Virus record (IMG/VR): IMGVR_UViG_3300006929_000026
Span: 1 to 48,421 of that record
Length of the DNA: 48,421 nt
Strand: one strand, 5' to 3'
DNA from: a virus
This document shows, in pieces, positions 1,808 through 35,314 of this stretch. Position 1 is the stretch's first letter, and the number at the start of each line of letters is the position of its first letter. A program made the translations under genes and the position numbers. The notes under the pieces were generated by a model that searched no databases, was not told where the DNA came from, and saw nothing but the letters and a program-made list of their open reading frames with translations.

Positions 1808-2089
1808 ATGAATGATATGAATAAACCAATAGGTAATGTAATGCCTAATCAACCTGGTACTGGTAACCAAGCTTTATATGATGGTCCTATGAAACAATAT
1901 TCTGATCAGCTAAATCAAGCTAGTAGTTTTTCTCAAGGCATGATGATGAAAAGTCCTTTAAAACAATTATCATCAGAGGCTTTAGTTTCACCTTTTAAAA
2001 TGGATGATTTATCAGGTGATGGAAAAATAACAAAAAAAGATGTATTAATAGGTAGAGGAGTTATAGACAAAGAAGGTAATAAATTATAA
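1808..2089 (+). CDS. Small protein with EF-hand-like loop and SP motifs
   Basis: This 93-aa protein is unrecognised. I chose the ATG at 1808, one base after the preceding stop; an in-frame ATG at 1781 would overlap the previous gene. Residues 67-78 read DLSGDGKITKKD, which fits the 12-position calcium-binding EF-hand loop (acidic or polar at 1, 3, 5, 9 and 12, Gly at 6, Ile at 8); no partner hand is visible. Dockerin-type loops look alike. The N-terminal half is Gln/Asn/Gly/Met-rich and probably unstructured. It carries SPLK (49-52) and SPFK (61-64), motifs shared with other small proteins of this phage. Confidence 0.65.
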   Translation: MNDMNKPIGNVMPNQPGTGNQALYDGPMKQYSDQLNQASSFSQGMMMKSPLKQLSSEALVSPFKMDDLSGDGKITKKDVLIGRGVIDKEGNKL

Positions 2090-2091
2090 TT

Positions 2092-2289
2092 ATGAAAAAA
2101 TCACCATTTTATCAAAAAGGTTCTGAATCCAAAATGGGTAAAGGCTGTGCTGATACTTCTCAAGGATGTATTAGAAAAGACGGTAGCGGATTTAAAATAT
2201 TAAATAATAAAAAAGGAGGAGTTTGGAGAAGTGGTTATGCAACTAGAAAAGAAGCGTTAAATCAATTAAAAGCAATGCACGCAAATTAA
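2092..2289 (+). CDS. Small basic two-Cys protein with MKKSPF start
   Basis: This 65-aa protein of unknown function begins MKKSPFYQKGSES. Its middle has two cysteines (GCADTSQGCIRK), followed by a basic region ending in a helix (TRKEALNQLKAMHAN). The compact Cys-containing core followed by Gly-Gly-x-Trp-Arg suggests a small folded unit, perhaps DNA- or capsid-associated. It starts two bases after the preceding stop, in an A/T leader with no Shine-Dalgarno sequence. Its MKKSPF start is nearly the same as that of the 43-aa protein at 34815-34946, 32 kb away. Confidence 0.65.
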   Translation: MKKSPFYQKGSESKMGKGCADTSQGCIRKDGSGFKILNNKKGGVWRSGYATRKEALNQLKAMHAN

Positions 2290-2290
2290 T

Positions 2291-2401
2291 ATGGATACTA
2301 AAAAATTAAAAAGAATATCAGCTGAATTAAAAAAAGCTTCTGCCATGCACAAGGCCCAAGCTTTAAAAATTGATAAAATGTTAAAATCAATAAAAAAATA
2401 A
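2291..2401 (+). CDS. Short lysine-rich helical peptide
   Basis: This is a 36-aa open frame of 37 codons, starting one base after the previous stop and followed five bases later by the next start. It reads as one amphipathic basic helix (11 Lys, only Met, Leu, Ile and Ala as hydrophobics). The spacing fits the run of tightly packed genes around it, and leaving it out would give an unusual 117-bp gap. I do not recognise it. It could be non-coding, although its position argues for expression. Confidence 0.5.
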   Translation: MDTKKLKRISAELKKASAMHKAQALKIDKMLKSIKK

Positions 2402-2406
2402 ATATC

Positions 2407-2631
2407 ATGCACGAAGATAAAGCATATAATAAAGCAAGTAAAAATAAAAAAGTAGGTATAGTAGGTGAAACTCACATATGGGATGGACCATTAAATCAAA
2501 CCGGTAGATCTCATGCTTCTGGTGATAGTTCTGGAATAACAGGTATGGAAGTATCTAAATATCCACAATCTCATGCTGAAATGCAAGTTAAATATCCTAT
2601 AACAGCGTTAGCTCAAGGTAAAAAAATTTAA
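2407..2631 (+). CDS. Hypothetical small hydrophilic protein
   Basis: This 74-aa protein has no family I recognise. A basic N-terminus (MHEDKAYNKASKNKK) is followed by a His/Gly/Ser-rich, probably flexible stretch (ETHIWDGPLNQTGRSHASGD) and a short C-terminus ending AQGKKI. There is no signal peptide or membrane segment. It is packed between two other very short genes in the same direction, so it belongs to the small-protein cluster of the late arm, whose products may be minor virion components (inference). Confidence 0.6.
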   Translation: MHEDKAYNKASKNKKVGIVGETHIWDGPLNQTGRSHASGDSSGITGMEVSKYPQSHAEMQVKYPITALAQGKKI

Positions 2632-2632
2632 C

Positions 2633-2785
2633 ATGAGTGTATCAGATATAAAATTACTCGCAATAAACGGGTTAGCTTTAGCTATTTCTATGACACATCT
2701 AGAGATTTCATTAAAAATTATACTTTTACTAGTAACTATTGGATATACAATATCTAAGTGGGTAAAATTAAAGGAAAAGAAGTAA
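2633..2785 (+). CDS. Short membrane protein, candidate holin or pinholin
   Basis: This is a 50-aa frame beginning one base after the previous stop. After MSVSDIK it is hydrophobic almost to the end: a first segment (LLAINGLALAISM), a polar turn (THLE), a second segment (ISLKIILLLVTIGYTI), then a basic tail KWVKLKEKK. A short hydrophobic protein with one or two TM helices and a positive C-terminus fits the general holin pattern, but a clearer 3-TM holin lies at 5488-5868. It could instead be a lysis regulator or another inner-membrane protein. Confidence 0.55.
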   Translation: MSVSDIKLLAINGLALAISMTHLEISLKIILLLVTIGYTISKWVKLKEKK

Positions 2786-2795
2786 TATTTAAACT

Positions 2796-3083
2796 ATGGC
2801 ATACATACAGTCTAATTCACCCTTTTTAAAAAGCAATGAACCTAGAAAAACAACTAAGGGTAAAGGAAGAAACTTCAGAACTGTTGAAGAAGGGGCTGGT
2901 ATGACTAAAAAAGGAGTTAAAGAGTATAAAAGAAAAAATCCAGGTAGTAAACTAAAAACAGCTGTAACAGGTGATGTTAAACCTGGTAGTAAAGATGCTA
3001 AGAGACGTAAATCTTTTTGTGCAAGATCAAGAGGATGGACAGGAGAAAGAGGTAAAGCCGCAAGGCGCAGGTGGAAATGTTAA
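2796..3083 (+). CDS. DUF6321-like small basic Cys protein
   Basis: This 95-aa, strongly basic protein has a C-terminal block that I recognise from a common phage family of unknown function (DUF6321-like): GMTKKGVKEYKRKNPGSKLK, then KTAVTGDVKPGS, then RRKSFCARSRGW and the terminal RRRWKC. The two cysteines lie in RKSFCARS and at the last residue. The N-terminus (AYIQSNSPFLKS) carries the SPF motif of this cluster. Members of the family are generally found near packaging or structural genes; nucleic-acid binding is plausible from the charge but not shown. Confidence 0.7.
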   Translation: MAYIQSNSPFLKSNEPRKTTKGKGRNFRTVEEGAGMTKKGVKEYKRKNPGSKLKTAVTGDVKPGSKDAKRRKSFCARSRGWTGERGKAARRRWKC

Positions 3084-3116
3084 ATAAAACGATATAAATA
3101 ATAATAATAAAAAACC

Positions 3117-3356
3117 ATGGAAAAAGGACATTTTGGAAAGTATACTGGCAATGCAAGGCATTCACATACTCCTATAACTAAACACAACGTACATGACGCT
3201 GAGCGTGATGATGCTGCTCATATTTCTTATTTAAAAAAAGATATTGATTATGATGCAAAACATAACAAAAGTAATATTGATATGACAGCTGATGAAAAAC
3301 ACATTTCTAAGCTTGCTGGAGATATTAAATATGACTCTAAAAAATATAAGAAATAA
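3117..3356 (+). CDS. Hypothetical small His/Lys/Asp-rich protein
   Basis: This 79-aa protein is rich in His, Lys and Asp with few hydrophobic residues. It contains two loosely repeated units (DDAAHISYLKKDIDYDAKHN and DEKHISKLAGDIKYDSKKY), which suggests an internal duplication of about 30 residues with the shared core HIS-L-DI-YD-K. No membrane segment or cysteine is present. Its TAA stop shares its last base with the next ATG, so the two are probably coupled. Function is unknown; I treat it as part of the small accessory cluster. Confidence 0.6.
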   Translation: MEKGHFGKYTGNARHSHTPITKHNVHDAERDDAAHISYLKKDIDYDAKHNKSNIDMTADEKHISKLAGDIKYDSKKYKK

Positions 3357-4129
3357 TGGGATTTAAACTACCAAAAATAGGAAAAATATTTGCTAGTACT
3401 GCAGGGACTAAACCTCATGCTATGTCTATTGCAAAAGCTCAATCGCCAAAACCTGCACAAGGTAATGTATCAGGAAGTAAATCACCTTTTCATGTTACAG
3501 CTACAAAAAAAGATTATGATAGCGGTTATGCAAAAAAAGGAGAAACTTTTAGAGAATATAAAAATCGTACTATATCTGATGGTAAGTATACTAGACCTTC
3601 AAAAGAAAATAAAGAGTCAACTAAAGCAAAAGAAGGTTTGTCAAGTAGAAAAGCTGAAAAACCTGGATCATTTAAACCTTTTAGAGTAACTACACCAAAG
3701 GCTAAGAAAGATGATGATTCTAAAAAGAAAGACAATACAGTTAGAAAAAAAGTAAAAACTATTGATCAAAAAAATAAAGAGTTTGATAAAGCAAAAGCAG
3801 ATAAAAAGAAAAAAGACGGAGAAAAACTAGAAAAAGATGTAACTGCTGATATAAAATCTACTAAACAAAACCAAAAATCAAATAAGACTACTGCTAAAAC
3901 AAAAAGTAGAATAGAAAAAAGATTAGAAAAAACTAGAAAAAAAGGTGAAGCTATTGCTGATGGTGAAGGAATAAAAACCGCAGCACAACAAAGAAAAGCT
4001 AGAAGACTTAAAAAACGAGAAACTAGGCTTAAAAAAAGAGTGGCTAAATCAAAAGGACCTGCTGGTTATGTGTCAGCTGCTCAACGTAAAGCAGTACACG
4101 CATCAAAAGCTGAAAAGAAAGCGAAGTAA
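3356..4129 (+). CDS. Lysine-rich disordered protein with SPF motif
   Basis: This 257-aa protein is very rich in Lys and Arg and low in hydrophobics. The N-terminus (GFKLPKIGKIFAS) could form one short amphipathic helix. GSKSPFHVTATKKDY repeats the SPF motif, and residues from about 75 to the end are long charged helical or disordered stretches (TKSRIEKRLEKTRKKGE, RKARRLKKRETRLKKRVAK). This composition fits a DNA-condensing or packaged internal protein, which is an inference. It is the last of the tightly coupled cluster; a 47-nt A/T-rich gap follows. Confidence 0.6.
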   Translation: MGFKLPKIGKIFASTAGTKPHAMSIAKAQSPKPAQGNVSGSKSPFHVTATKKDYDSGYAKKGETFREYKNRTISDGKYTRPSKENKESTKAKEGLSSRKAEKPGSFKPFRVTTPKAKKDDDSKKKDNTVRKKVKTIDQKNKEFDKAKADKKKKDGEKLEKDVTADIKSTKQNQKSNKTTAKTKSRIEKRLEKTRKKGEAIADGEGIKTAAQQRKARRLKKRETRLKKRVAKSKGPAGYVSAAQRKAVHASKAEKKAK

Positions 4130-4715: not shown

Positions 4716-5024
4716 ATGGCTTTTAAAATTAAACCACCTTATACAATTGATAACACACCAGTGTATCATTTAGATTTTGAAGAAGATGGTTTACTTGGTA
4801 GAGCTGACAAAAACGGAAGTATATTAATAAATAAAAACATAACAAACCCTAAACAGAAAGCAGACGTAATAAAGCATGAAAAAGTACATCTTAATGATAT
4901 GAAAAAAGGTATACTAGATTATGATGATAAAAATGTTTACTGGAAAGGTAAAAAATATCCTCGTTCTAAATTTAATGAGGGTAATAAAAATTTACCTTGG
5001 GAAAAAAGGGCTTATAACGCATAA
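4716..5024 (+). CDS. Small zincin-type metallopeptidase-like protein
   Basis: This 102-aa protein contains the zinc metallopeptidase motif HExxH at residues 54-58 (HEKVH), set in the helix KADVIKHEKVHLNDM. A glutamate at residue 96 in PWEKRAYNA would be the third ligand, as in gluzincins. Between them a tyrosine/Lys-rich beta segment (NVYWKGKKYPR) fits the insert of very short phage zincins. No signal peptide or membrane segment is visible. It could process virion proteins or act in lysis. Activity is an inference from the motif. Confidence 0.65.
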   Translation: MAFKIKPPYTIDNTPVYHLDFEEDGLLGRADKNGSILINKNITNPKQKADVIKHEKVHLNDMKKGILDYDDKNVYWKGKKYPRSKFNEGNKNLPWEKRAYNA

Positions 5025-6909: not shown

Positions 6910-7129
6910 TGTAATAAGAAAAATTAGCATAGGAGCTGATTATAAAAATGACGCTATGCACTATGCTATAGGACAGCAAGTGTATGGCGGTCATACTATA
7001 TCTCATATATTATATAATGAAGAAGAGTTTTCTTATAATATATTTATTAAAAAAGAAGACGAGGTATTACCTTGGAAAAAATTTAATTCCAATATGGCTA
7101 TATCGGTTGAATATGATTTAGAATACTAA
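6902..7129 (+). CDS. Hypothetical small beta-rich protein, GTG start
   Basis: This 75-aa protein starts at the GTG overlapping the upstream stop by 8 nt, and its own TAA shares a base with the next ATG, so it is locked into the operon. It is mostly beta-like (YAIGQQVYGGHTISHILYNE, FSYNIFIKKEDEVLPWKKF). No membrane segment or known motif is seen. A single-domain SH3-like or barrel fold is possible from length and strand pattern, but function is unknown. Confidence 0.6.
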   Translation: MSSVIRKISIGADYKNDAMHYAIGQQVYGGHTISHILYNEEEFSYNIFIKKEDEVLPWKKFNSNMAISVEYDLEY

Positions 7130-7743
7130 TGAACAGTGTTTATGATTTTATTATAAAACCATTAGGTGAAAGATATAATAACAAAGTAAATATTGATAAT
7201 AAAGAATTAATTATTAATTCTAGTATTTCAGATCATAAATTTGTTAATAGGCTTGCCAAAGTAGTTAGTATCCCATTAGCTATAAAAACAAATATTAAAA
7301 TAAACGATATAGTTGTAGTACATCATAATTTATTTAGACGTTATTATAACATGAAAGGAAAATCAGTAAATGGTTCTAAATATTTTAAAGATGATTTATA
7401 CTTTGCCTCAGAGTCACAAATATATTTATATAATAATGGTATTTGGAATACAAATAAAGATTTTTGTTTTATAAAACCATTACAAGAAAATAATGAGTTT
7501 AGTGTTGAAAAAGTAAAAAAGAATGTTGGTATACTAAAGTATGGTAATAGTTCATTAGAAGTGCTAGGAATAACTACAGGAGATGTTGTTGGATTTAAAT
7601 CTAACAGAGAGTTTGAGTTTGTGGTTGATAAGCAGCTTTTATATTGTATGGAATCAAATGATATTTTAATTAAGTATGAACACGAAGAAAACCAAAGAGA
7701 GTATAATCCAGGCTGGGCAGAAAGCGGTAGAAGAATTAATTAA
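7129..7743 (+). CDS. Tandem GroES-like (double cpn10) protein
   Basis: This 204-aa protein appears to hold two cpn10-like barrels. The first half begins YDFIIKPLGERY and continues AKVVSIPLAIKTNIKINDIV and VVHHNLFRRYYNMKG. The second begins DFCFIKPLQE and continues VGILKYGNSSLEVLGITTGD, VVGFKSNREFEFVVD and SNDILIKYE. The order KPL / G-V-hydrophobic / GD-V / E..V / DI in each half follows the GroES scaffold. A true groES already lies at 1103-1363. It may assist terminase or capsid folding or form its own cap; the fold is inferred by pattern. The putative small terminase gene overlaps its 3' end by 68 nt. Confidence 0.6.
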   Translation: MNSVYDFIIKPLGERYNNKVNIDNKELIINSSISDHKFVNRLAKVVSIPLAIKTNIKINDIVVVHHNLFRRYYNMKGKSVNGSKYFKDDLYFASESQIYLYNNGIWNTNKDFCFIKPLQENNEFSVEKVKKNVGILKYGNSSLEVLGITTGDVVGFKSNREFEFVVDKQLLYCMESNDILIKYEHEENQREYNPGWAESGRRIN

Positions 7744-12612: not shown

Positions 12613-13869
12613 ATGTCTAAACAAGAAGAAGTAAAAACAAAAGAAGAAGAAGTAAAAATTACTGCTACTGATACTACTCCTACTAAAAAAGAAGGAGATT
12701 TTAAAATAAAAAGTGCAAAAAAAATAAAAAACTTAGGTGAAGAAAAAATACCTGATATTATTAAGGTAGATTTAAGTAAACCTAAAAAAGAAGAAAAAGA
12801 TGCCGTTCAAACACAAAAGACAAATGATAGCGATGTTGTTGTCGAAGAGCAAAAAAACAGTGGCGACAGCGAAAAAGTGGTTGAAGAAGTACGGCCCACC
12901 GACGAAGGAGTAGAGTCTGACTCGCCTATACAACTAATAACAGATGAAAACGATACACCTGACGAGGCGGGAGTGGATGGAAGCACTGAAACTACCACTA
13001 CCTCATCGAAACAAGAAGAAATACCACAGGAAGTTCAAACACAAAAACTCCCTGAAAATGTAGAAAAACTAGTAAAGTTTATGGAAGAAACTGGCGGAAA
13101 TATACAAGACTACGCTAGATTAAACGCTGACTATACTAATGTAGATGAAACTACACTTTTACATGAATATTACAAACAATCTAAACCTCATTTAAATGCA
13201 GAAGAAAGAAACTTTATAATAGAAGATTCTTTTGCTATTGATGAAGAGTTAGATGAAGCAAGAACTGTTCGTAAGAAAAAGCTTGCATATAAAGAAGAAG
13301 TTGCAAAAGCCAAGAACTATTTGGAAAAAATCAAGAGTAAATATTACGACGAGATCAAGTTGAGACCGGGCGTTACTCAAGAACAACAAAAAGCCACTGA
13401 CTTTTTCAACCGCTACAATGAAGAACAAAAAGCAAATAATGTTAAACACGACCGTTTTGTTACCAAAACTAAAGAATTATTAAACGATAATTTCAAAGGT
13501 TTTGATTTTAATTTAGGAGATAAAAAATTTAGATACGGTATTAAAGATCCTGGTAGTGTTGCAAATAACCAAAGTGATATTTCAAATTTTATAGGAAAGT
13601 TTCTTAATAAAGAAGGAGAAATAACTAATACTAAAGGTTATCATAAAGCATTATATGCTGCACAAAATGTAGATACTATTGCTAATCATTTTTATGAGCA
13701 AGGTAAAACTGATGCTATTAAAGATCAATTAGCAGAATCCAAAAATATAAGTACTGATAGCCCAAGGCAAACAGCTACGGGTGATGTATTTGTTAATGGT
13801 TTTAAAGTAAAAGCAATTAGTGGTGTTGATTCTTCAAGATTAAAAATAAAAAAGAAAACATTTAACTAA
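12613..13869 (+). CDS. Capsid assembly (scaffolding) protein
   Basis: This 418-aa acidic, helical protein sits between portal and major capsid genes, the usual scaffold position. Residues 1-140 are low-complexity Glu/Lys/Thr/Asp and disordered. A conserved-looking block follows (VEKLVKFMEETGGNIQDYAR, LLHEYYKQSKPHLNAEERNF), then a Lys/Glu coiled coil at about 205-260. The C-terminus is basic (SSRLKIKKKTFN), as needed to bind the capsid shell. The DNA for residues about 75-135 is GC-rich (about 50% in two counted rows), unlike its flanks. No protease motif is seen. Confidence 0.8.
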   Translation: MSKQEEVKTKEEEVKITATDTTPTKKEGDFKIKSAKKIKNLGEEKIPDIIKVDLSKPKKEEKDAVQTQKTNDSDVVVEEQKNSGDSEKVVEEVRPTDEGVESDSPIQLITDENDTPDEAGVDGSTETTTTSSKQEEIPQEVQTQKLPENVEKLVKFMEETGGNIQDYARLNADYTNVDETTLLHEYYKQSKPHLNAEERNFIIEDSFAIDEELDEARTVRKKKLAYKEEVAKAKNYLEKIKSKYYDEIKLRPGVTQEQQKATDFFNRYNEEQKANNVKHDRFVTKTKELLNDNFKGFDFNLGDKKFRYGIKDPGSVANNQSDISNFIGKFLNKEGEITNTKGYHKALYAAQNVDTIANHFYEQGKTDAIKDQLAESKNISTDSPRQTATGDVFVNGFKVKAISGVDSSRLKIKKKTFN

Positions 13870-15414: not shown

Positions 15415-16179
15415 ATGAAAAATAAAAAAACAACTCAAGATACGTCTTGGGAAATAAAAGATAGAACATATCTTGTAAAAGGTACAAATCAACCATTAAC
15501 CTTAAAAATACCTTCTCGTCATACAACACGTCATGCTTTATTATGGTACGACAATGAAAAAAATGAACAAAGAGAAATAAGATATGCTACAAATCAAAAT
15601 TCACCGTTTAAAGATGAACAAAAAGGTGAAGCAACTTTAGGACATATTGTGTTTAAGGATGGTGCTTTAACTGTAAGAAAAAAAGAACAGGCTTTACAAA
15701 AAATACTATCACTTTATCATCCTTTACTAAATATAAAATATAAAGAATTAGACACAGTAGAAGATGCTAAAGATGAATTAGTAGACTTAGAAATGGAAAT
15801 AGATGCTTTAAATATTGCTAGAAACATAGATATTGATCAAGCTGAAGCTATTTTAAGAGTTGAAATGGGATCTAAGGTATCTGAGATGAGTTCTAAAGAG
15901 ATAAAAAGAGATTTACTTATATTTGCTAAAGATGACCCTAAATTATTCTTAGATCTTGCAAAAGATGATAATGTACAGTTAAGAAATTTTGCTATAAAAG
16001 CATCTGAAGCTGGCATTATACATTTAGCAGATGATCAAAGAACATTTAAATGGTCTTCAAACAACAAAAAACTAATGACTGTACCTTTTGATGAACATCC
16101 TTACGCTGCTATGGCTGCGTTCTTTAAAACAGATGAAGGTTTAGAAATATATAAATCTATAGAGAAAAAACTCTCTTAA
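15415..16179 (+). CDS. Conserved-position structural protein next to capsid
   Basis: This 254-aa protein lies between two hairpins. Its N-terminal 75 residues are beta-like (RTYLVKGTNQPLTLKIPSRH, HALLWYDNEKNEQREIRYAT) with an SPFK element (NSPFKDEQKG). An acidic helical middle follows (VEDAKDELVDLEMEIDALNI) and then a region with KRDLLIFAKDDPKLFLDLAK. I know no function. In podovirus-like marine phages a gene of this size often follows the capsid gene, so a head-completion or minor-capsid role is likely by position only. Confidence 0.65.
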   Translation: MKNKKTTQDTSWEIKDRTYLVKGTNQPLTLKIPSRHTTRHALLWYDNEKNEQREIRYATNQNSPFKDEQKGEATLGHIVFKDGALTVRKKEQALQKILSLYHPLLNIKYKELDTVEDAKDELVDLEMEIDALNIARNIDIDQAEAILRVEMGSKVSEMSSKEIKRDLLIFAKDDPKLFLDLAKDDNVQLRNFAIKASEAGIIHLADDQRTFKWSSNNKKLMTVPFDEHPYAAMAAFFKTDEGLEIYKSIEKKLS

Positions 16180-16236: not shown

Positions 16237-17010
16237 ATGGCTATAAATGTAAACACTGTTTATCAAACCGTTTTACTTATATTAAACAAAGAGCAAAGAG
16301 GTTATATGACACCTACAGAGTTTAACAATATAGGTACTCAGGTTCAATTACAAATATTTGAAAAATATTTTGAGGATATAAACCAACAAATACGTATACC
16401 TCAAACAGATACTGATTATGCTGATAGAGTGGAAAATATTGATGAAAAAATAGCTATTTTTAAAACTTACGGTAACGCTAATTATGTTACTGGACCTCCT
16501 GCATACTGGACATTACCTACTATTGATATATATGGTAATAATGTAGAACCTACTTCGGATACGCCTTTTTATAGACTAGGCACAGTTACTTATAAAAACG
16601 AAGTATTAGTTCAAAGATTAGATAGAAATGATTTTTATACTATAAATAAATCTTTACTAACAAAACCAACAAAAACTTTTCCTGCATATTTATATGAGAA
16701 TAATTATTTATATGTTTTACCCAATGACATAGTTACAGATGGGGATATACAAGTTGAATTTATTAAAAAACCTGCACCACCTATTTGGGGCTTTGATGTA
16801 GGTTCTTTAGGTCAATATGTATATAACAGCTCTCCTTTTGATCCATCTGCTTCTCCTACAGGATCTAGAAATTTTGAAATACATATATCAGAACAAACAT
16901 CTTTGATAATAAAAATATTACTATATGCAGGTATTGTAATAAGAGATCCACAAATTGTTCAAGCTGCATCTCAACAAGTGCAGTCTGAAGAAATAAATGA
17001 AAAAAGCTAA
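16237..17010 (+). CDS. Head-tail connector-like protein
   Basis: This 257-aa protein follows the second hairpin. An N-terminal helix with EQRGYMTPTEFNNIGTQVQL leads to a mixed alpha/beta body, and then FHISEQ-like ends (NFEIHISEQTSLIIKILLYA). The N-terminus resembles connector or adaptor subunits that mature the portal-tail junction. The product is a structural component by context between the capsid and tail genes. No clear enzymatic motif is visible, and I give the role as tentative. Confidence 0.6.
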   Translation: MAINVNTVYQTVLLILNKEQRGYMTPTEFNNIGTQVQLQIFEKYFEDINQQIRIPQTDTDYADRVENIDEKIAIFKTYGNANYVTGPPAYWTLPTIDIYGNNVEPTSDTPFYRLGTVTYKNEVLVQRLDRNDFYTINKSLLTKPTKTFPAYLYENNYLYVLPNDIVTDGDIQVEFIKKPAPPIWGFDVGSLGQYVYNSSPFDPSASPTGSRNFEIHISEQTSLIIKILLYAGIVIRDPQIVQAASQQVQSEEINEKS

Positions 17011-18242: not shown

Positions 18243-21200
18243 ATGGCAGAAGTTAAAAATTCTTTTATTAAGTCCAAAATGAATAAAGACCTGGATGCCA
18301 GGTTGTTACCAAATGGTGAATATCGTGAAGGAAATAATATACAGGTAAGTAAATCTGAAGGTGCCGACGTTGGAGCGTTAGAAAATGTTTTAGGTAACGT
18401 AGAGATAGCTGACTTTAAAGTTTTATCAGGTTGTAACTGTAATCTTACTGCTATTGGTATGTATACTGATAATTTATCTGATAATATATATGTATTTTTA
18501 ACTGATTACGATGAAACTCAAAACAATTATATAGTTCAAAACTTAAACTATTCTCCAACAGCAAATAACTATGTATTTCAACATAACGTAGCTAGTGGTC
18601 AATCTCTTATGCTTTTATCTGGAGCATTTTTAAATTTTTCTAAAAATAAACCTATATTAAATGTAAATTTATTAGAAGGTATACTTTTTTGGACAGATAA
18701 TAGAAACCAACCTAGAAAAATAACTTTAAATAATGCTACGAGCAATGCAACTTCTTCAACAACTAATAGTTTTTATACTACAGAAGAACAAATTAGTGTA
18801 GCAACATATGCTCCGTATCAACCTATTAATTTATATTATGAAAAAACAGCTGCTTATAATGTAAATGGTGGCCAAGGTGCTACTGACCCTACAACGCCTA
18901 CTAGTTCTGCGGTTACAACTATTAATATTCCATCAAGTACTTTACAAGGAGTAAACCCTACAGATTTAACAGGTGCTGTTGTTACAGCATCTACAGGTAT
19001 AGCTGCTGGTACAGTTATTGTAAGCTATGTTGCTCCTACATTAACTATTAGTGCGCCAACAACGGGTATTATTCCTGTTAATACTACTATATTGTTCAAT
19101 GCTAATACATTACCAGCAACAACTTATGGTAAATATGTAACTAGCATGTTAGATGCTACTACACAAACAAATCCTGATGGTTCAGCTAATGCTAATTATA
19201 ATGCTAGTTTTAATGGTGATCCAGATTTTTTAGAAGATAAATTTGTAAGATTTAGTTATAGATTTAAATATATAGATAATACATATTCTTTAATGGCGCC
19301 TTTTACTCAAGCCGCTTTTATACCTAAACAAGATGGTTATTTTTTAGGTACTGCAAATCCTGTTTTACCTGGAAACACTAAAGACGAACAAAACGCCTAT
19401 AGAAGTACTGTTGTTGATTTTATGGCTAATAAAGTTAATAACATTTTTCTTCAAATACCTACGCCACCATCAGAAACAAACGGTCAACCAGCTGCTTTTG
19501 GTATATTAGGAAAAGACTTAGCATCAACATTTCATGTGTCTGAAATAGAAATATTATATAAAGAGTCTGATTCTTTAGCTGTTAAAGTTGTAGATACAAT
19601 ACAGGCATCTGAATTTACAGGTTTAAGTACTGTTGATGGTGTTAATACTGATACTATTGTATATGACTATCAAAGTACAAAGCCTTTTAAAACATTGCCT
19701 GATTCAGAATTAGTAAGAGTTTATGATAAAATTCCTGTAAGAGCTCAAGGTCAAGAAATAATAGGTAATAGACTTGTTTATAGTAACTTTCAAAACAAAC
19801 ACACGCCACCAGCATCTATAAATTATAATGCTACTGCGTCTCAAAAATATACAGATTTTTCTATACCTATAACTAGTAATGAGTTTTCTCCATCACTTTC
19901 TACTACTTCGTCAGTAGAATATCCAATGCATACTTTAAAACAAAATAGAAATTATCAAATAGGTGTTATATTATCTGATAAATACGGTAGATCATCTACT
20001 ACAATACTTTCATCTGCTACATCTCAACAAGAAGATGCTGATGGTTTAAAACTTTCTGGTGATACTATATATTTTCCTTACAATGTTGTTGATATAACTG
20101 GCTCTACTAATAATATAAACTCTTGGGTAGGTGATTCTATAAAAGTTTTATTTAATCAACCATTACCAGTAAGTAGACCTAATTTACAGTCTTTAGTACC
20201 AGGTGTATATAACGGTGATCCTACTAGTTCTGATTATAATCCACTTGGTTGGTATTCATATAAAATTGTAGTTAAACAACAAGAACAAGAATATTATAAT
20301 GTTTATTTACCTGGTATATTAAATCCTTATCCTAAAGATATAAGTGTAACTGAAGATCCTCAAAATACTATTAACACAATTGTTTTATTAAACGATAATA
20401 TTAACAAAGTACCAAGAGACTTAACAGAAGTAGGACCAGAACAACAACAGTTTAGAAGCGCTGTAGAACTATATGGTAGAGTTTCTCCTGAAGCTACTTC
20501 TACGCCAGCTTTTAATCAACAATATAACCCTTCATCTGCTAGCAATGTTATACCTAGCGTTAGTACAGTTGCTACTATTGGTAAACAAAATGATTTATTT
20601 GACAATACTACCAGCGTAGTGTTTAGTGAAATATATCAATCAATATCAAACCCTGAAATAGCTAGATTATCACAAGACGAAGCATTACCAATAGGTTCTT
20701 TACCTGTAGGCACACAAGGAGCAGCATATAATCTTTTATTAGGTATTTATGAAACTAAACCTTTTGATTCTTTATTAGATATTTATTATGAAACATCATC
20801 AACAGGTACTGTTCATCAATTAAACACAGCTATATTAGGTGGTAATTCAGCTGCTTCAGGTGTAACAAATACCACAGACGCTTCTACTGATGATTGGGTT
20901 TTTAATTTATATGAAAATATACAACAAGGCCAATCACCTAATCAATCGTTTACAGGATCATACACTACAGTTACCTCGCTACCTGATCAACCTTTTTATC
21001 CATATAAAACAAATGCGGCTGGTACAAGGTCTATTATAAATAATAGTAATATAAAAGGAGCTATTACATTAGCTCAATATACTGCTAATGGTGGTTTTGT
21101 AGCACAAGATGGTTTTAGTGTAACTAGATCAGATGGTGTAGATGTATCTAATAAATTTACATTGATAAAAAATACTGATTCTCAACCATTTAAGTATTTT

Positions 21201-23642
21201 ATTTTAATAAATAATAATGAAAACTTTACATATGGTCCTGATTCATTTAATATAGATACTTACGAGTTTTTATTTGAAGAAGTAACTGATTTAGATACAA
21301 ATATAATAACGCCAGTTACAGCTACAGGTAAATTAAGAAACATACAGCCAACTATTACAAATTGTACAACTGATGATTTAAATCCGGTTCCTGGTCAAAC
21401 TATTATTAAACAATTTTTAGGAGTAAATGGTAGTCCAGTTGATCAACAACTAGGTTTATCTTGGCATGTATTAAATCAAAACCCTTCAGTAGATCTTGAA
21501 AATGGTGTACCTTTGATAGAAATAAATCAAGATGGTGAACTATTAAATAATACTGATTTGTTTCCTACAGGAATAAGTTTAACTGTTCAATTAAGAGATA
21601 GTGGGTATATACAAAATGCTTCTGAAACTTACAATGGTGTTGCATATGTTGATTGTCCTATAACAATAAATGCTGGTGCTGGATTTACAGCAGAACCACT
21701 TAATGAAAATTTTGGTAATTTTGAAAATTTATTAATTAATGCTGGCGCTGAATCGTCTACATTTATATGGGCAAAAGAAACCGATATAGTAAACGCTTAT
21801 CAAGCCGCACCTTTACTTCAAAAAGATGGTGCTAATCCAGCTGAAATACCAGTAAATCCAAGAGAAAATATTACTATTAATACTGGTGTAAATGCTAATA
21901 GTACTGGTTTAAATAGAGTACAAACACCTCAAACAGAGGGTAGTGAAACATGGTATTGGTGGAACACAATAAGAACTAATAAAATATCCCTTACTACAGC
22001 CACAACTCAAGGTAGCATACAACTTAATCTTGGTAATAATACTGGGTCTAATGGAGTTGTTACGAATGCTAGACAAGTATCTACAGATTCTAGGTTAAAT
22101 CAAAATTTTAATCCTGCAACAACTAATAGTGGGTTAGATACTTTAAACACAGGAACTGCTTTTATAGGTATAGATTATGTTTTAACTGATTATCAAGGAA
22201 CAGATGATCAACCTTCTGTTATTTGGCCTACTTATTTACAATATAGAGCATCTTCAGCAGATGATTTTACTACTGCTACAGATATAGAAGGAAGACCAAT
22301 ACAGTTTGGTGGAACACAAGAAGGCGGAATATTAGTTAATGGTAGATTTACGAATGATGGTTCAGGCTCGCAATACATGGGTGATGGTATTATTTTTGAT
22401 AATATTGAATCTCAAATTGGTACATCTAGTTCTAGTACAAACACAGAAGAAGCTTGGGTTAAAGATTCTTCAGAAACTAGATACGTAAGCAATACGGCTC
22501 CTGGAACTACTAATCATATATCTTCTAGAACAAACTATGGTGTTATAGGTAGAAGAGTGTTTGCGGTTGGAAAAAATCAAGCATATAGATTAGGAGGGGG
22601 TGTTGAAAATCCTGATGCTCCTGATGCTTTTGGAGAATACAGATTAGTAGTTAGATATCCTTACGGTAGTAACACTGCTGGTAATGTAAATCCTGCGTTA
22701 ACAGTAAATAATATACCATCGGGCGCTGTATATGGAACTGATACAAAATCTAAATCAAACCAACAAGTGTATTTACGTTATGGTGATTTTTATCAAGGTA
22801 AAAGTTTTAGATATAGAATTAGTCAAGGTTTTGATTCAAGAGAAGAAGCAGAATCTCAACTTACGTTTCCTCAAGTAGTTTTTGCTAAAGAAGCTTATAT
22901 GAGATACGTATCACATTTTTATACTGATGCTAATTTAACTAATGTTTATTTACCTCATAATTCATCTACAAAATGGCATTCATATATAGGTGAAGATATT
23001 AATTATTTTGGTGATGACAACGCAAGTCCTAATGCTTCTGGTATATATCCAGGTCAACTTTTCGAAGATATAGGTATTCCCTCAAGTTTGTATGGAATAA
23101 CAAGAGGTAATAGAGGAGAAAACGATAGAAAATGGGTTGCACAATTTGATGCTGGTGGTAAAAAAGTACCTTATTATGCTAGCATAGCTGCTGGTGATGA
23201 ACCTGCATATCCATGTGAATATAAAGGTACATTATGGACAGGACCACCAAATGGTACACAACAAGGGACAATGTCTATTACTCCTACACCTAGTAGCGCT
23301 AATATTGGTGACACATTAACACAAATATTTATAAACTTTAATAGTATTAGATTTAATCCTAACGCACCATCAGAGTCTCAAGCATTTTTTACTAAATTAA
23401 GTGATGGATCAACTACATTTAGTGCTGATCAACCTATAAAACAAGCTATAACTGAACTATCTGTTATTAGTGGTTTTTATCCTTTTCCAGCCACTCTTTC
23501 TTTTACTTGCGCTTTTGGTACAACAACTGTTACTTATCAAGAGGTTAATGGTTATTATAGTGTTATTATTAAAGATATAGTATTAACTGGAGGTTCAGCA
23601 CAGCTTCAAGCATCATCAAACGCATATTGGACAGGCTTATAA
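18243..23642 (+). CDS. Large tail protein, nozzle N-terminal part (P22 gp10/T7 gp12 type)
   Basis: This 1799-aa protein is the longest tail gene. Its N-terminus (FIKSKMNKDLDARLLPNGEY, IQVSKSEGADVGALENVLGN) is the signature start of the podovirus tail stabilisation or nozzle proteins. The remainder is a long series of beta-rich, Asn/Thr/Ser/Gly domains, probably including receptor-contacting or fibre-like insertions. The stop at 23640 is followed in the same frame, after ten codons with three consecutive TAA, by another ORF with the nozzle's beta-propeller-like C-terminal part. Together they are probably one split nozzle. No catalytic motif is seen. Confidence 0.75.
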   Translation: MAEVKNSFIKSKMNKDLDARLLPNGEYREGNNIQVSKSEGADVGALENVLGNVEIADFKVLSGCNCNLTAIGMYTDNLSDNIYVFLTDYDETQNNYIVQNLNYSPTANNYVFQHNVASGQSLMLLSGAFLNFSKNKPILNVNLLEGILFWTDNRNQPRKITLNNATSNATSSTTNSFYTTEEQISVATYAPYQPINLYYEKTAAYNVNGGQGATDPTTPTSSAVTTINIPSSTLQGVNPTDLTGAVVTASTGIAAGTVIVSYVAPTLTISAPTTGIIPVNTTILFNANTLPATTYGKYVTSMLDATTQTNPDGSANANYNASFNGDPDFLEDKFVRFSYRFKYIDNTYSLMAPFTQAAFIPKQDGYFLGTANPVLPGNTKDEQNAYRSTVVDFMANKVNNIFLQIPTPPSETNGQPAAFGILGKDLASTFHVSEIEILYKESDSLAVKVVDTIQASEFTGLSTVDGVNTDTIVYDYQSTKPFKTLPDSELVRVYDKIPVRAQGQEIIGNRLVYSNFQNKHTPPASINYNATASQKYTDFSIPITSNEFSPSLSTTSSVEYPMHTLKQNRNYQIGVILSDKYGRSSTTILSSATSQQEDADGLKLSGDTIYFPYNVVDITGSTNNINSWVGDSIKVLFNQPLPVSRPNLQSLVPGVYNGDPTSSDYNPLGWYSYKIVVKQQEQEYYNVYLPGILNPYPKDISVTEDPQNTINTIVLLNDNINKVPRDLTEVGPEQQQFRSAVELYGRVSPEATSTPAFNQQYNPSSASNVIPSVSTVATIGKQNDLFDNTTSVVFSEIYQSISNPEIARLSQDEALPIGSLPVGTQGAAYNLLLGIYETKPFDSLLDIYYETSSTGTVHQLNTAILGGNSAASGVTNTTDASTDDWVFNLYENIQQGQSPNQSFTGSYTTVTSLPDQPFYPYKTNAAGTRSIINNSNIKGAITLAQYTANGGFVAQDGFSVTRSDGVDVSNKFTLIKNTDSQPFKYFILINNNENFTYGPDSFNIDTYEFLFEEVTDLDTNIITPVTATGKLRNIQPTITNCTTDDLNPVPGQTIIKQFLGVNGSPVDQQLGLSWHVLNQNPSVDLENGVPLIEINQDGELLNNTDLFPTGISLTVQLRDSGYIQNASETYNGVAYVDCPITINAGAGFTAEPLNENFGNFENLLINAGAESSTFIWAKETDIVNAYQAAPLLQKDGANPAEIPVNPRENITINTGVNANSTGLNRVQTPQTEGSETWYWWNTIRTNKISLTTATTQGSIQLNLGNNTGSNGVVTNARQVSTDSRLNQNFNPATTNSGLDTLNTGTAFIGIDYVLTDYQGTDDQPSVIWPTYLQYRASSADDFTTATDIEGRPIQFGGTQEGGILVNGRFTNDGSGSQYMGDGIIFDNIESQIGTSSSSTNTEEAWVKDSSETRYVSNTAPGTTNHISSRTNYGVIGRRVFAVGKNQAYRLGGGVENPDAPDAFGEYRLVVRYPYGSNTAGNVNPALTVNNIPSGAVYGTDTKSKSNQQVYLRYGDFYQGKSFRYRISQGFDSREEAESQLTFPQVVFAKEAYMRYVSHFYTDANLTNVYLPHNSSTKWHSYIGEDINYFGDDNASPNASGIYPGQLFEDIGIPSSLYGITRGNRGENDRKWVAQFDAGGKKVPYYASIAAGDEPAYPCEYKGTLWTGPPNGTQQGTMSITPTPSSANIGDTLTQIFINFNSIRFNPNAPSESQAFFTKLSDGSTTFSADQPIKQAITELSVISGFYPFPATLSFTCAFGTTTVTYQEVNGYYSVIIKDIVLTGGSAQLQASSNAYWTGL

Positions 23643-23675: not shown

Positions 23676-25163
23676 ATGGCAGCAACTATAGAAGTTAAAT
23701 ACTTTAACAGTTTTGTACTGAGAAAAACACTAGACTCTTCTGGAGCAGCCGCTTGGAATGGTTCTAAGGGAGATGGTACATATCCTGCTATGTCACCTAA
23801 CAACGCAAATGCTAAAAACTGGGCCGTAGAAGAATCACGTATTAAAGGTGGTTTTAACAACACGAGTACTGGTTATGGTGTAAAAGCTTATTTAGTAGAA
23901 GATAATCCAAAAGGATCTGTTAGAATTAATTCTATGATATACTCTGGTATATTTAACTCTAGAACAGGTATAAATGATACTAATGTATTTTCTGTAGGTA
24001 CAGATATAATTAAAAGTGTAGATCCTGCAAATGGCTCTATACAAAAACTATATGCTGAAGATAACTATTTACATATATTTCAAGAGAAAAAAGTAAGTAG
24101 AGCGCCAATAGATAAAGATATTATATATTCAGCTGAAGGTAGTCCTACTATTACAGCAAGCACAGCTGTTATAGGCGATATACAGGCTTATGTGGGTAAT
24201 TTTGGTATTAGTAGAAACCCTGAAAGCTTTGCTTCGTATGGTAATAGAAGATATTTTACTGACAAAGATAGAAATGCTGTAATGAGACTTTCTTCAGGTT
24301 CTGGAGGTGGTGATGGCCTTACAGAAATATCTAACTATGGTATGATTGATTTCTTTAGAGATCAGTTTGGTGCTATGGGTGAAGGTAAACTTACTGGTGG
24401 TTGGGATATATACAACAAACAATATGTATTATCAATACAACCTCAAGATACTAGCATTGCTTATAAAACATTATCTTTTGATGAATCAGTAAATGGTTGG
24501 ACTAGTTTATATTCTTATAAACCTGGTTTAATGCTTAGTTTAAAAAATAAGTTTTATACTATGGGACCATCTGATACTACAGACACAGATACAGCTGGTT
24601 TATATCAACACTATATTACATCACAACCAAGATGTAATTTTTATGGTGTACAAGATAAAGCTAGTATAAAATTTGTATTTAATCCTAATGTAAGCTTGTC
24701 AAAAGTATTTAAAACAATCAACTACGAAGGTAGTAATGGTTGGCAAGTAGATAGTTTTGTGTCTGATCAAACAGGTATAGGGTTTCCTAATATTGATTTT
24801 AGTAATTATGAAACAGTAAATACTCAAGACTCAACAGTTGCTATATACAGCTATAATGAAGGTTCATTTGATAATTATGGTAACTTATTTATAAATCCTT
24901 TAAATAGTCCTATAACAGAAAGTAATACACCATTAATACCGCCTGTAAATCATGCAGGTTTTACTAGAAAAGAAAATAAATACATGGCTAATCTTGTTAA
25001 TAATAGTCCTGCGGCTCCAGGTGAAGTAGTATTTGGTGATGATATGACTGGTATTAAAGGTTACTTTGCTACTGTCACTATATCTACTGATACTTTAACA
25101 GATCCAGGAGGTATGAAAGAATTATTTGCAGCATCGTCAGACTATGTAGAATCAGCTTATTAA
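23676..25163 (+). CDS. Nozzle C-terminal part (separate gene)
   Basis: This 495-aa protein starts 33 nt after the large tail protein and is in the same reading frame, separated by four in-frame stops (one ending the upstream gene, then TAA-TAA-TAA at 23664-23672). Its beta-propeller-like pattern (KLYAEDNYLHIFQEKKVSRA, AVIGDIQAYVGNFGISRNPE, YFTDKDRNAVMRLSSGSG) matches the C-terminal part of podovirus nozzle or stabilisation proteins. It probably assembles with the previous product. The next gene's ATG overlaps its stop by one base. Confidence 0.75.
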   Translation: MAATIEVKYFNSFVLRKTLDSSGAAAWNGSKGDGTYPAMSPNNANAKNWAVEESRIKGGFNNTSTGYGVKAYLVEDNPKGSVRINSMIYSGIFNSRTGINDTNVFSVGTDIIKSVDPANGSIQKLYAEDNYLHIFQEKKVSRAPIDKDIIYSAEGSPTITASTAVIGDIQAYVGNFGISRNPESFASYGNRRYFTDKDRNAVMRLSSGSGGGDGLTEISNYGMIDFFRDQFGAMGEGKLTGGWDIYNKQYVLSIQPQDTSIAYKTLSFDESVNGWTSLYSYKPGLMLSLKNKFYTMGPSDTTDTDTAGLYQHYITSQPRCNFYGVQDKASIKFVFNPNVSLSKVFKTINYEGSNGWQVDSFVSDQTGIGFPNIDFSNYETVNTQDSTVAIYSYNEGSFDNYGNLFINPLNSPITESNTPLIPPVNHAGFTRKENKYMANLVNNSPAAPGEVVFGDDMTGIKGYFATVTISTDTLTDPGGMKELFAASSDYVESAY

Positions 25164-34461: not shown

Positions 34462-34815
34462 ATGAATAACGAAAAAAAAGAAGTACGTCATTACATCGGT
34501 GCAGCCGGCATATTTACTTTAATCATATTATTACTAATATTTCTAAGTTATGTAGAAATACCACCAGTAAATAAAGACTTATTCGTGGCCATCGTAGGAA
34601 CACTAGTTTCTAGTTTGGGAATTGTTGTGTATGTTATAATAGGGCAACAACCGGATGAGGTTAATAAATTACAAAAGAAAAATGAATCATTAGAATCAAT
34701 GACTCATCAAATGGAAAAACGTAATGATCAATTAGAAGAAATGATAATTGACATGCAAAAAGAAATGATAGAAAAATTTACTTCAAAAAGTTGTAACTGT
34801 AAAGATAAAGAATAA
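34462..34815 (+). CDS. Membrane/coiled-coil protein, possible holin or spanin-type
   Basis: This 117-aa protein has two hydrophobic segments (IFTLIILLLIFLSYVEI; LFVAIVGTLVSSLGIVVYVI), then a coiled coil (NKLQKKNESLESMTHQMEKR) and a C-terminus with CNCKDKE. N-terminal TM hairpin plus cytoplasmic coiled coil suits a holin, anti-holin or lysis regulator. It is three genes before the endolysin, so a lysis function is likely. The start overlaps nothing; the next gene begins with the ATG that shares its stop base. Confidence 0.6.
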   Translation: MNNEKKEVRHYIGAAGIFTLIILLLIFLSYVEIPPVNKDLFVAIVGTLVSSLGIVVYVIIGQQPDEVNKLQKKNESLESMTHQMEKRNDQLEEMIIDMQKEMIEKFTSKSCNCKDKE

Positions 34816-34946
34816 TGAAAAAAAGCCCATTAATGATCAAGATAAGTGCTAGTTGTAAAGCAGCAGCTAAGAAAAAATTTAAAGTATATCCAAGTGCATA
34901 TGCAAACATATGGGCTTCAAAAACACAGAAAAAAGGTAAGTGCTAA
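34815..34946 (+). CDS. 43-aa basic two-Cys protein with MKKSPL start
   Basis: This is a short frame (43 aa, 44 codons), fixed at both ends by overlaps of one base with its neighbours (taATG at each junction). It reads MKKSPLMIKISASCKAAA, then KKFKVYPSAYANIWASKTQ and a C-terminal KKGKC. Two cysteines and the VYPSAYAN element recall small phage proteins of unknown function. The MKKSPL start is nearly the same as MKKSPF of the protein at 2092-2289. It is too short for many gene callers but is clearly operonic. Confidence 0.6.
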   Translation: MKKSPLMIKISASCKAAAKKKFKVYPSAYANIWASKTQKKGKC

Positions 34947-35314
34947 TGGGCTTTAATATACATAACAGACACTCTAATAGCCCTTTAGCTTGTTGGAAAG
35001 GATACGAAAGAGTTCCTGGTACAGCAAAAGGAGCCAAAGGAAGTTGTAGAAAATCATCTGGTCCTGCTCAAAAAGGATCTGTAAAAGGTGGAGGTACTAA
35101 AAAAGTATGTTTACCTAAAGCAAAGATTGCTAGCATGAGCCAACAAGAAAGACAAAAAGTTATAAGTGCAAAACAAAAAGCTGGTAGAGCTGGTAAGTAT
35201 AAAAGATCTAGTAGTAGCAATGTTACTGGTACTGCTAGTAAAAATTTAAAAGACTGGATTAAACAAGACTGGAGACAGGTTGGTGATCCTAGTAAAAAAT
35301 GTGGAGAAAAATAA
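34946..35314 (+). CDS. Small basic Cys protein with NSPLACWKGY
   Basis: This 122-aa basic protein starts at the ATG overlapping the previous stop by one base; the GTG at 34940 is a less likely start. NSPLACWKGYERVPGTAKGA is followed by SCRKSSGPAQ, then KVCLPKAKIASMSQQERQK and a Lys/Ser/Arg stretch (GRAGKYKRSSSSNVTG), ending WRQVGDPSKKCGEK. Several cysteines spaced in basic sequence suggest a small zinc- or nucleic-acid-binding protein. It seems to be one of a group of SPF/SPL-motif proteins shared with the 1.8-4.1 kb cluster. Function is unknown. Confidence 0.65.
   Translation: MGFNIHNRHSNSPLACWKGYERVPGTAKGAKGSCRKSSGPAQKGSVKGGGTKKVCLPKAKIASMSQQERQKVISAKQKAGRAGKYKRSSSSNVTGTASKNLKDWIKQDWRQVGDPSKKCGEK

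Follow-up and report, generated by a model that had tools for sequence, protein, structure and literature searches.

The question raised by this locus is whether a three-residue element, Ser-Pro followed by Phe or Leu, that recurs in otherwise unrelated small phage proteins is a coincidence of composition or a common address, and, if it is an address, where it leads. We have examined it in a stretch of 48,421 nucleotides (IMG/VR record IMGVR_UViG_3300006929_000026, positions 1 to 48,421, called the window below) and in related phage sequences. We will show that SP[FL] tagging is real and far above chance in one clade of uncultured marine Bacteroidota-type phages. The reading that we favor, with a probability of roughly 55%, is that the tag is an address recruiting mostly basic late proteins to the assembling virion, for which we infer a partner, encapsidation and ejection. 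A literature search found no published function of DUF6321, a domain that figures prominently below, and no published use of the motif.

The + strand of the window encodes GroEL/GroES, a cluster of small genes, TerL (phrog_6681), the portal (phrog_6547) and a head protein (phrog_13704), while the − strand carries replication and nucleotide genes (ribonucleotide reductase, primase/helicase). Relatives of the TerL are found in Cellulophaga, Flavobacterium, Maribacter and Tenacibaculum phages at 31–45% identity, and also in many contigs binned with Bacteroidota, which points to a marine Bacteroidota as the probable host. Three genes serve as landmarks:

1360–1806, + strand: homologue of gp078 of Cellulophaga phage phi40:1 (KC821612), the synteny anchor
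12613–13869, + strand: candidate scaffold between the portal and the major capsid protein, a putative role
23676–25163, + strand: C-terminal part of a crassvirus-type muzzle (Pfam crAss_MUZ, crAss_MUZ_C)

The AlphaFold model of ORF 12613 is scaffold-like, with a disordered N-terminal third and long helices, and its phi40:1 homologue gp092 is a virion protein by MS/MS. The muzzle assignment comes from two Pfam matches above the cut-off, crAss_MUZ_C at 2e-12 and crAss_MUZ at 2e-7; the muzzle is seemingly divided over this ORF and the preceding one at 18243–23642, which has no Pfam match. At the left end, the GroEL reading frame (1–1122) is open from base 1 (DNIATISTNNDPELGKLIGDAF...), and the gene is thus presumably cut by the contig end and not a short GroEL. 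It is followed by GroES, and a second GroES-like gene (phrog_13932) is located at 7129–7743.

All six motifs that the first-pass annotation had listed in the left cluster and at 34.8–35.3 kb are present. The genes concerned, together with a neighboring zincin-like gene, are:

1781–2089, + strand: protein of 102 residues, tagged twice internally (SPLKQ at residue 58, SPFKM at residue 70)
2092–2289, + strand: 65-aa protein with the N-terminus MKKSPFYQK; a near-identical copy occurs in locus L087
2796–3083, + strand: 95-aa DUF6321 protein with the N-terminal tag MAYIQSNSPFLKS (NSPFLKS)
3356–4129, + strand: 257-aa Lys-rich protein with KSPFHV at residues 42–47
4716–5024, + strand: zincin-like protein with HExxH (HEKVH), untagged in the window (MAFKIKPPY)
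34815–34946, + strand: 43-aa protein with the N-terminus MKKSPLMIK and a phrog_27331 match from residue 7 on
34946–35314, + strand: 122-aa basic protein with NSPLACWKGY at residue 12; the ORF is also open from a GTG at 34940

The start of the first of these genes had earlier been placed at 1808, which is an in-frame ATG of the ORF 1781–2089. Downstream of both its tags lies an EF-hand-like segment, DLSGDGKITKKDVLIGRGV / DLSGDGKITKKDVLIGRGVID. A near-identical relative in L087 (5353 on) has 161 residues and a third SPL, and since it runs on to that length the copy in the window looks C-terminally shortened.

In the left-cluster region, SP[FL] occurs in four of the nine called genes; shuffling within each protein predicts 0.15, and none of 5000 shuffles gave as many. 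Over the whole window it is found in 5 of 20 late-strand proteins below 200 aa (0.26 expected) and in none of the 13 early-strand proteins of that size. The window also has SPF in the conserved structural proteins 15415–16179 (NQNSPF) and 16237–17010 (NSSPF) and in GroEL (LSPFKTIL); as these are conserved proteins, the matches were left out as tags. The protein 15415–16179, next to the major capsid gene, contains a strongly conserved NQNSPFxDEQKG, with S63 invariant in 24 relatives. Its NQNSPF was considered as a tag and rejected; the AlphaFold model is folded (pLDDT 83), with no match in the PDB.

We now consider the phage group as a whole. It is important to point out that the motif is short, so that a single occurrence is not surely a tag, and that the firm part of the result is the population statistic; the genes were called with a simple dicodon scorer and the families built by BLAST clustering, which may split remote relatives. 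The search for S-P-[FL]-x-K with a shuffled control, proposed with the original observation, bears it out, with 7.4 weighted families against 0.57 expected (13-fold). For plain SP[FL] the corresponding value is 27.3 against 5.1 (proteins below 200 aa).

The excess is confined to late genes. Using ten full-length related contigs and the window, 29 of 102 late-strand families of small proteins have SP[FL] (weighted 22.6, against 3.6 by shuffling), compared with 4 of 177 early-strand families (2.7 against 2.6), which gives an odds ratio of 17 (Fisher p 1e-10). Counted per protein below 300 aa, the motif is present in 59 of 320 late-strand proteins (8.6 expected) and in 5 of 362 early-strand ones (7.3 expected); a few conserved folded families, NQNSPF among them, contribute to these counts, and the tests below 200 aa, which exclude most of them, lead to the same result.

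Around TerL, in 81 sequences, the family-weighted value for proteins below 150 aa is 14.4 against 3.2±1.5. For those of 150–300 aa it is 9.3 against 2.2, partly from the conserved NQNSPF family, and above 300 aa there is no excess (3.6 against 5.1). The control motifs PS[FL], TP[FL], SP[AGV] and SP[DEKN] show no excess in the same sequences. An unbiased scan of all 3-mers, in 81 loci around the 1360 ORF, ranks SPF (7.0 against 1.1) and SPL (11.1 against 2.4) highest of those 3-mers for which more than one family is expected; a higher z is reached by some rarer 3-mers, resting on two or three families. In a held-out set of 32 loci from genome_contigs, those with TerL of at least 72% identity have SP[FL] at 7.3 against 1.35 (0 of 200 shuffles). 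Those with more distant TerL show no such enrichment, and neither do the controls PS[FL] and S[FL]P. A scan at the DNA level over the entire collection found MKKSPFxK in 26 stretches and the scrambled MKKPSFxK in 20, none of them, by inspection, in this phage group, and there is thus no global viral signal.

These numbers bear on the possibility that the motif is an artefact of base composition, of a DNA-level signal near start codons, or of common descent of N-termini. Some tagged families could indeed have acquired common ancestral N-termini by recombination, and the clustering of short proteins could have separated relatives. However, composition is controlled by the within-protein shuffles, permuted and substituted motifs show no excess, and the tag is missing from the early genes and the large proteins of these genomes. 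The codons within the motif are those of the background and the 9-mers are varied (74 different ones), which argues that selection acts on the protein and not on the DNA, and internal tags exist as well. A tag inherited by recombination would, moreover, still be a module. We therefore consider an artefact very improbable.

The form of the motif is strict. At the first position S alone is enriched (27.3 against 6.0 families; T has 7.3 against 4.6), and at the third position F and L alone. The tag had been described as often N-terminal, and this is the case, since 27 of 61 late sites lie within the first 15 residues (7.6 expected). The Lys said to follow it turns out to be only a bias, with K enriched 1.8-fold and Q 3.0-fold two residues past F/L. 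Two or more tags are found in 13 proteins, against 0.4 expected, and a longer one, in L096, has MKSRSPFLSKSPLLSKSPLKV. The context is usually flexible, with K/N/G/S before the motif and often K or Q two residues after it. Tagged late proteins are basic, their net charge per residue being 0.155, compared with 0.011 for untagged late proteins (p 2e-9).

The basic charge, together with the somewhat enriched K around the tag, could suggest that the motif itself contacts DNA, like the minor-groove motif S/T-P-K/R-K/R (SPKK) of basic chromatin proteins. The third position is, however, F or L only, and both SPK (2.1 against 5.7 weighted families) and SPR (0 against 2.0) are below expectation. The tag is also carried by PAP2 and zincin-like proteins, which are not obvious DNA binders. 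An SPKK-type motif, with a basic residue directly after S-P, was rejected, and direct DNA contact is in our judgment a highly unlikely role for the tag.

SP[FL] behaves as a module placed before unchanged cores. Alignments of the DUF6321 protein encoded at 2796 with its counterparts in Pelagibacter and cyanobacterial phages mostly start at residue 17 or beyond. Its core, RKTTKGKGRNFRT, is near-constant over 107 loci, while the preceding part changes completely; SP[FLIM] stands before the core in 41 of 61 loci with genes of the phage group and in 10 of 46 others. Pelagiphage- and cyanophage-like copies begin at the core, the former reading MAI directly before RKTT, or similar. In loci where DUF6321 is tagged, the other small proteins have 0.077 SP[FL] per protein, against 0.014 in tagless loci outside the group. 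DUF6321 itself is a widespread module of marine phages. It is found either as a small gene of its own or at the end of a larger protein annotated as a virion protein, and it lies near TerL in two cyanophages (L284, S-SCSM1; L285, S-TIP28) and in a late-type cluster in one Pelagibacter phage.

The family of phi40:1 gp080 gives the same picture. Its tagged members begin with SQSPLLKQKLSPKAA, CSPLKKQNLSPAAA and NSPIKLTKQKLSKSAA, and untagged N-termini read MAKQKLSPKAS, MPKQKLSPKAA and MGKQKLSIKAA. The member in L225 has 52% identity to gp080 over 50 residues; those of phi40:1, L178, L127 and G009 have no tag. The tag also stands before a PAP2 domain (L196) and on zincin-like proteins. Relatives of the untagged zincin-like ORF 4716–5024 carry it, as MAFKMDSPICTC in L041 and MSFKLSSPFKKH in L181. 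This small HEKVH protein is conserved upstream of TerL in the phage group and has weak matches to phrog_16532 and phrog_10499.

The presence of the zincin-like gene in the same cluster is relevant for a further proposal of the first-pass annotation, namely that the tag is a processing site for a prohead protease or the zincin-like protein. There is precedent in T4, whose prohead protease cleaves off the capsid targeting sequences (PMC9026906). The T4-type cleavage motif, LxE/IxE, is nevertheless not enriched downstream of the tags (3.6 against 2.4±1.3 of 26 families), and Pfam and PHROG recognized no prohead protease among the late proteins scanned, where divergent ones could escape. Tags at residues 3–5 leave almost nothing to cut off, others are tandem or internal, and the zincin-like relatives are tagged themselves. 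Processing is thus improbable, and this part of the proposal is not supported.

When 84 loci were placed on a tree by their TerL, the 57 that are tagged all grouped within a single clade of 73; the remaining 11, among them the cultured phages, have no tag. Support for the deep branches is moderate, and the labels vary with the share of the small-gene cluster that a contig covers; about a fifth of the clade loci have no SP[FL] in the sampled upstream cluster. In distant relatives, the GroES-like gene ahead of TerL begins with MKSPFYFI; this is the start of a folded protein and was not counted in the labels. A single origin of the tag followed by losses would be the simplest account. The collections searched contain no tagged phage among cultured ones, and tblastn searches of cultured phages, with three tagged modules and with ORF 34946 as queries, gave no match. 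Since the tag is absent from them, the cultured relatives must use another signal to gather their small virion proteins.

The link to the virion comes from phi40:1, in which MS/MS is the basis for the annotation of gp069, gp077 and gp080 as virion proteins. All three are encoded in the cluster upstream of TerL, with gp077 and gp080 flanking gp078, and gp069 and gp080 are very basic. In the cyanophage S-SCSM1, DUF6321 forms the end of a 517-aa annotated virion protein near TerL. Two qualifications apply: the untagged gp080 of phi40:1 is in the virion, so packaging does not depend on the tag in every phage, and late-strand genes include lysis genes, so late expression alone does not imply encapsidation.

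The latter point leads to the alternative that the tag docks its carriers to a late partner inside the cell, such as a hub for lysis or assembly, the GroEL/GroES of the phage or a protein of the host, with no entry into the virion. A late-specific, modular short linear motif with strict residues would suit any docking partner. The GroEL/GroES genes lie directly upstream of the cluster, with a GroES-like gene before TerL, and enzymes such as PAP2 and zincin-like proteins are tagged too. On the other hand, the tag-free relatives outside the clade also have GroEL and/or GroES, the tagged gp080 family includes a member detected in the virion by MS/MS, and the strong basic bias fits DNA-associated cargo. 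Two structure predictions (ORFs 15415 and 12613) gave no docking evidence for a tag partner. Purely intracellular docking is in our view unlikely, without being far-fetched.

The MS/MS data of phi40:1, the basic charge, the DUF6321 of S-SCSM1, cargo storage in crassviruses and the capsid targeting of T4 make an address for particle assembly the best reading. The common address suggested in the first-pass annotation is supported by the confinement to the late strand, the modular gain in DUF6321 and the gp080 family, the residue specificity, the selection at the protein level and the family with an MS/MS-detected virion member; the procapsid, which it had named, is a plausible destination. In this mechanism, S-P-[F/L] would be a short linear motif of modular character that many small, unrelated proteins expressed along with the virion genes have acquired, mainly close to their N-terminus and in some cases in tandem. 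One phage partner of the late phase, most likely an inner-surface or scaffold/core component of the procapsid, would bind the tag and gather the mostly basic tagged proteins into the particle. Inside, these proteins would accompany the DNA as cargo, and the two could be ejected together.

More tentatively, and with somewhat more doubt than belief, the tag may amount to a three-residue packaging code, by which any small protein with S-P-[F/L] in a flexible tail would be loaded and delivered into the host. The phages would then possess an open cargo slot with changing DNA-binding proteins and enzymes (DUF6321, gp080-like, PAP2, zincin-like). A short shared tag would allow virion cargo to be predicted from the sequences of uncultured phages, most of whose small proteins lack annotation, and would be a compact means of loading chosen proteins into laboratory phage particles.

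Finally, we compare the tag with known systems. The window phage shares a crassvirus-type muzzle with phi-crAss001, and crassvirus virions store MDa amounts of cargo in capsid and tail, the particles having room for about 5.5 MDa of cargo protein (PMC10172136). The crassvirus cargo differs in consisting of large proteins (gp45, gp46, gp47, gp49, gp50), for which the text consulted describes no packaging tag, and SP[FL] is present in none of the 13 small late proteins of crAss001 that were checked. With a short shared tag, the way in which crassvirus-like phages select the proteins carried into the host would become directly testable.

The phi40:1 proteins gp069, gp077 and gp080 are alike in being small late virion proteins from a syntenic cluster, and the gp080 family is tagged in the present clade, but they differ in having no SP[FL] themselves. 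In encapsulins, an HK97-fold shell takes up unrelated cargo that is guided there by short loading peptides located in flexible tails; these peptides are mainly C-terminal and of other sequence. Unlike them, the SP[FL] tags are concentrated in the first 15 residues and are phage-borne. PMC8346489 mentions the loading of cargo into encapsulins.

Small basic internal proteins of T4 gain entry to the head through a common N-terminal capsid targeting sequence (CTS) with affinity for the core. This CTS, which is about 10 residues long, attaches to the prohead core and is cut off by the gp21 protease; it is portable, loading fused foreign proteins too, and the bodies behind it turn over quickly between related phages (PMC9026906). 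The likeness to the CTS of IPI, IPII and IPIII lies in a short N-terminal element on several small basic proteins with divergent bodies, and this trait is present in the tagged clade, where the element is common to unrelated small basic proteins. Unlike the CTS, the tag has a core of three residues, S-P-[F/L], can be internal or tandem, and comes without an associated cleavage motif. We lean towards a tag that works like the T4 CTS but is unrelated to it.
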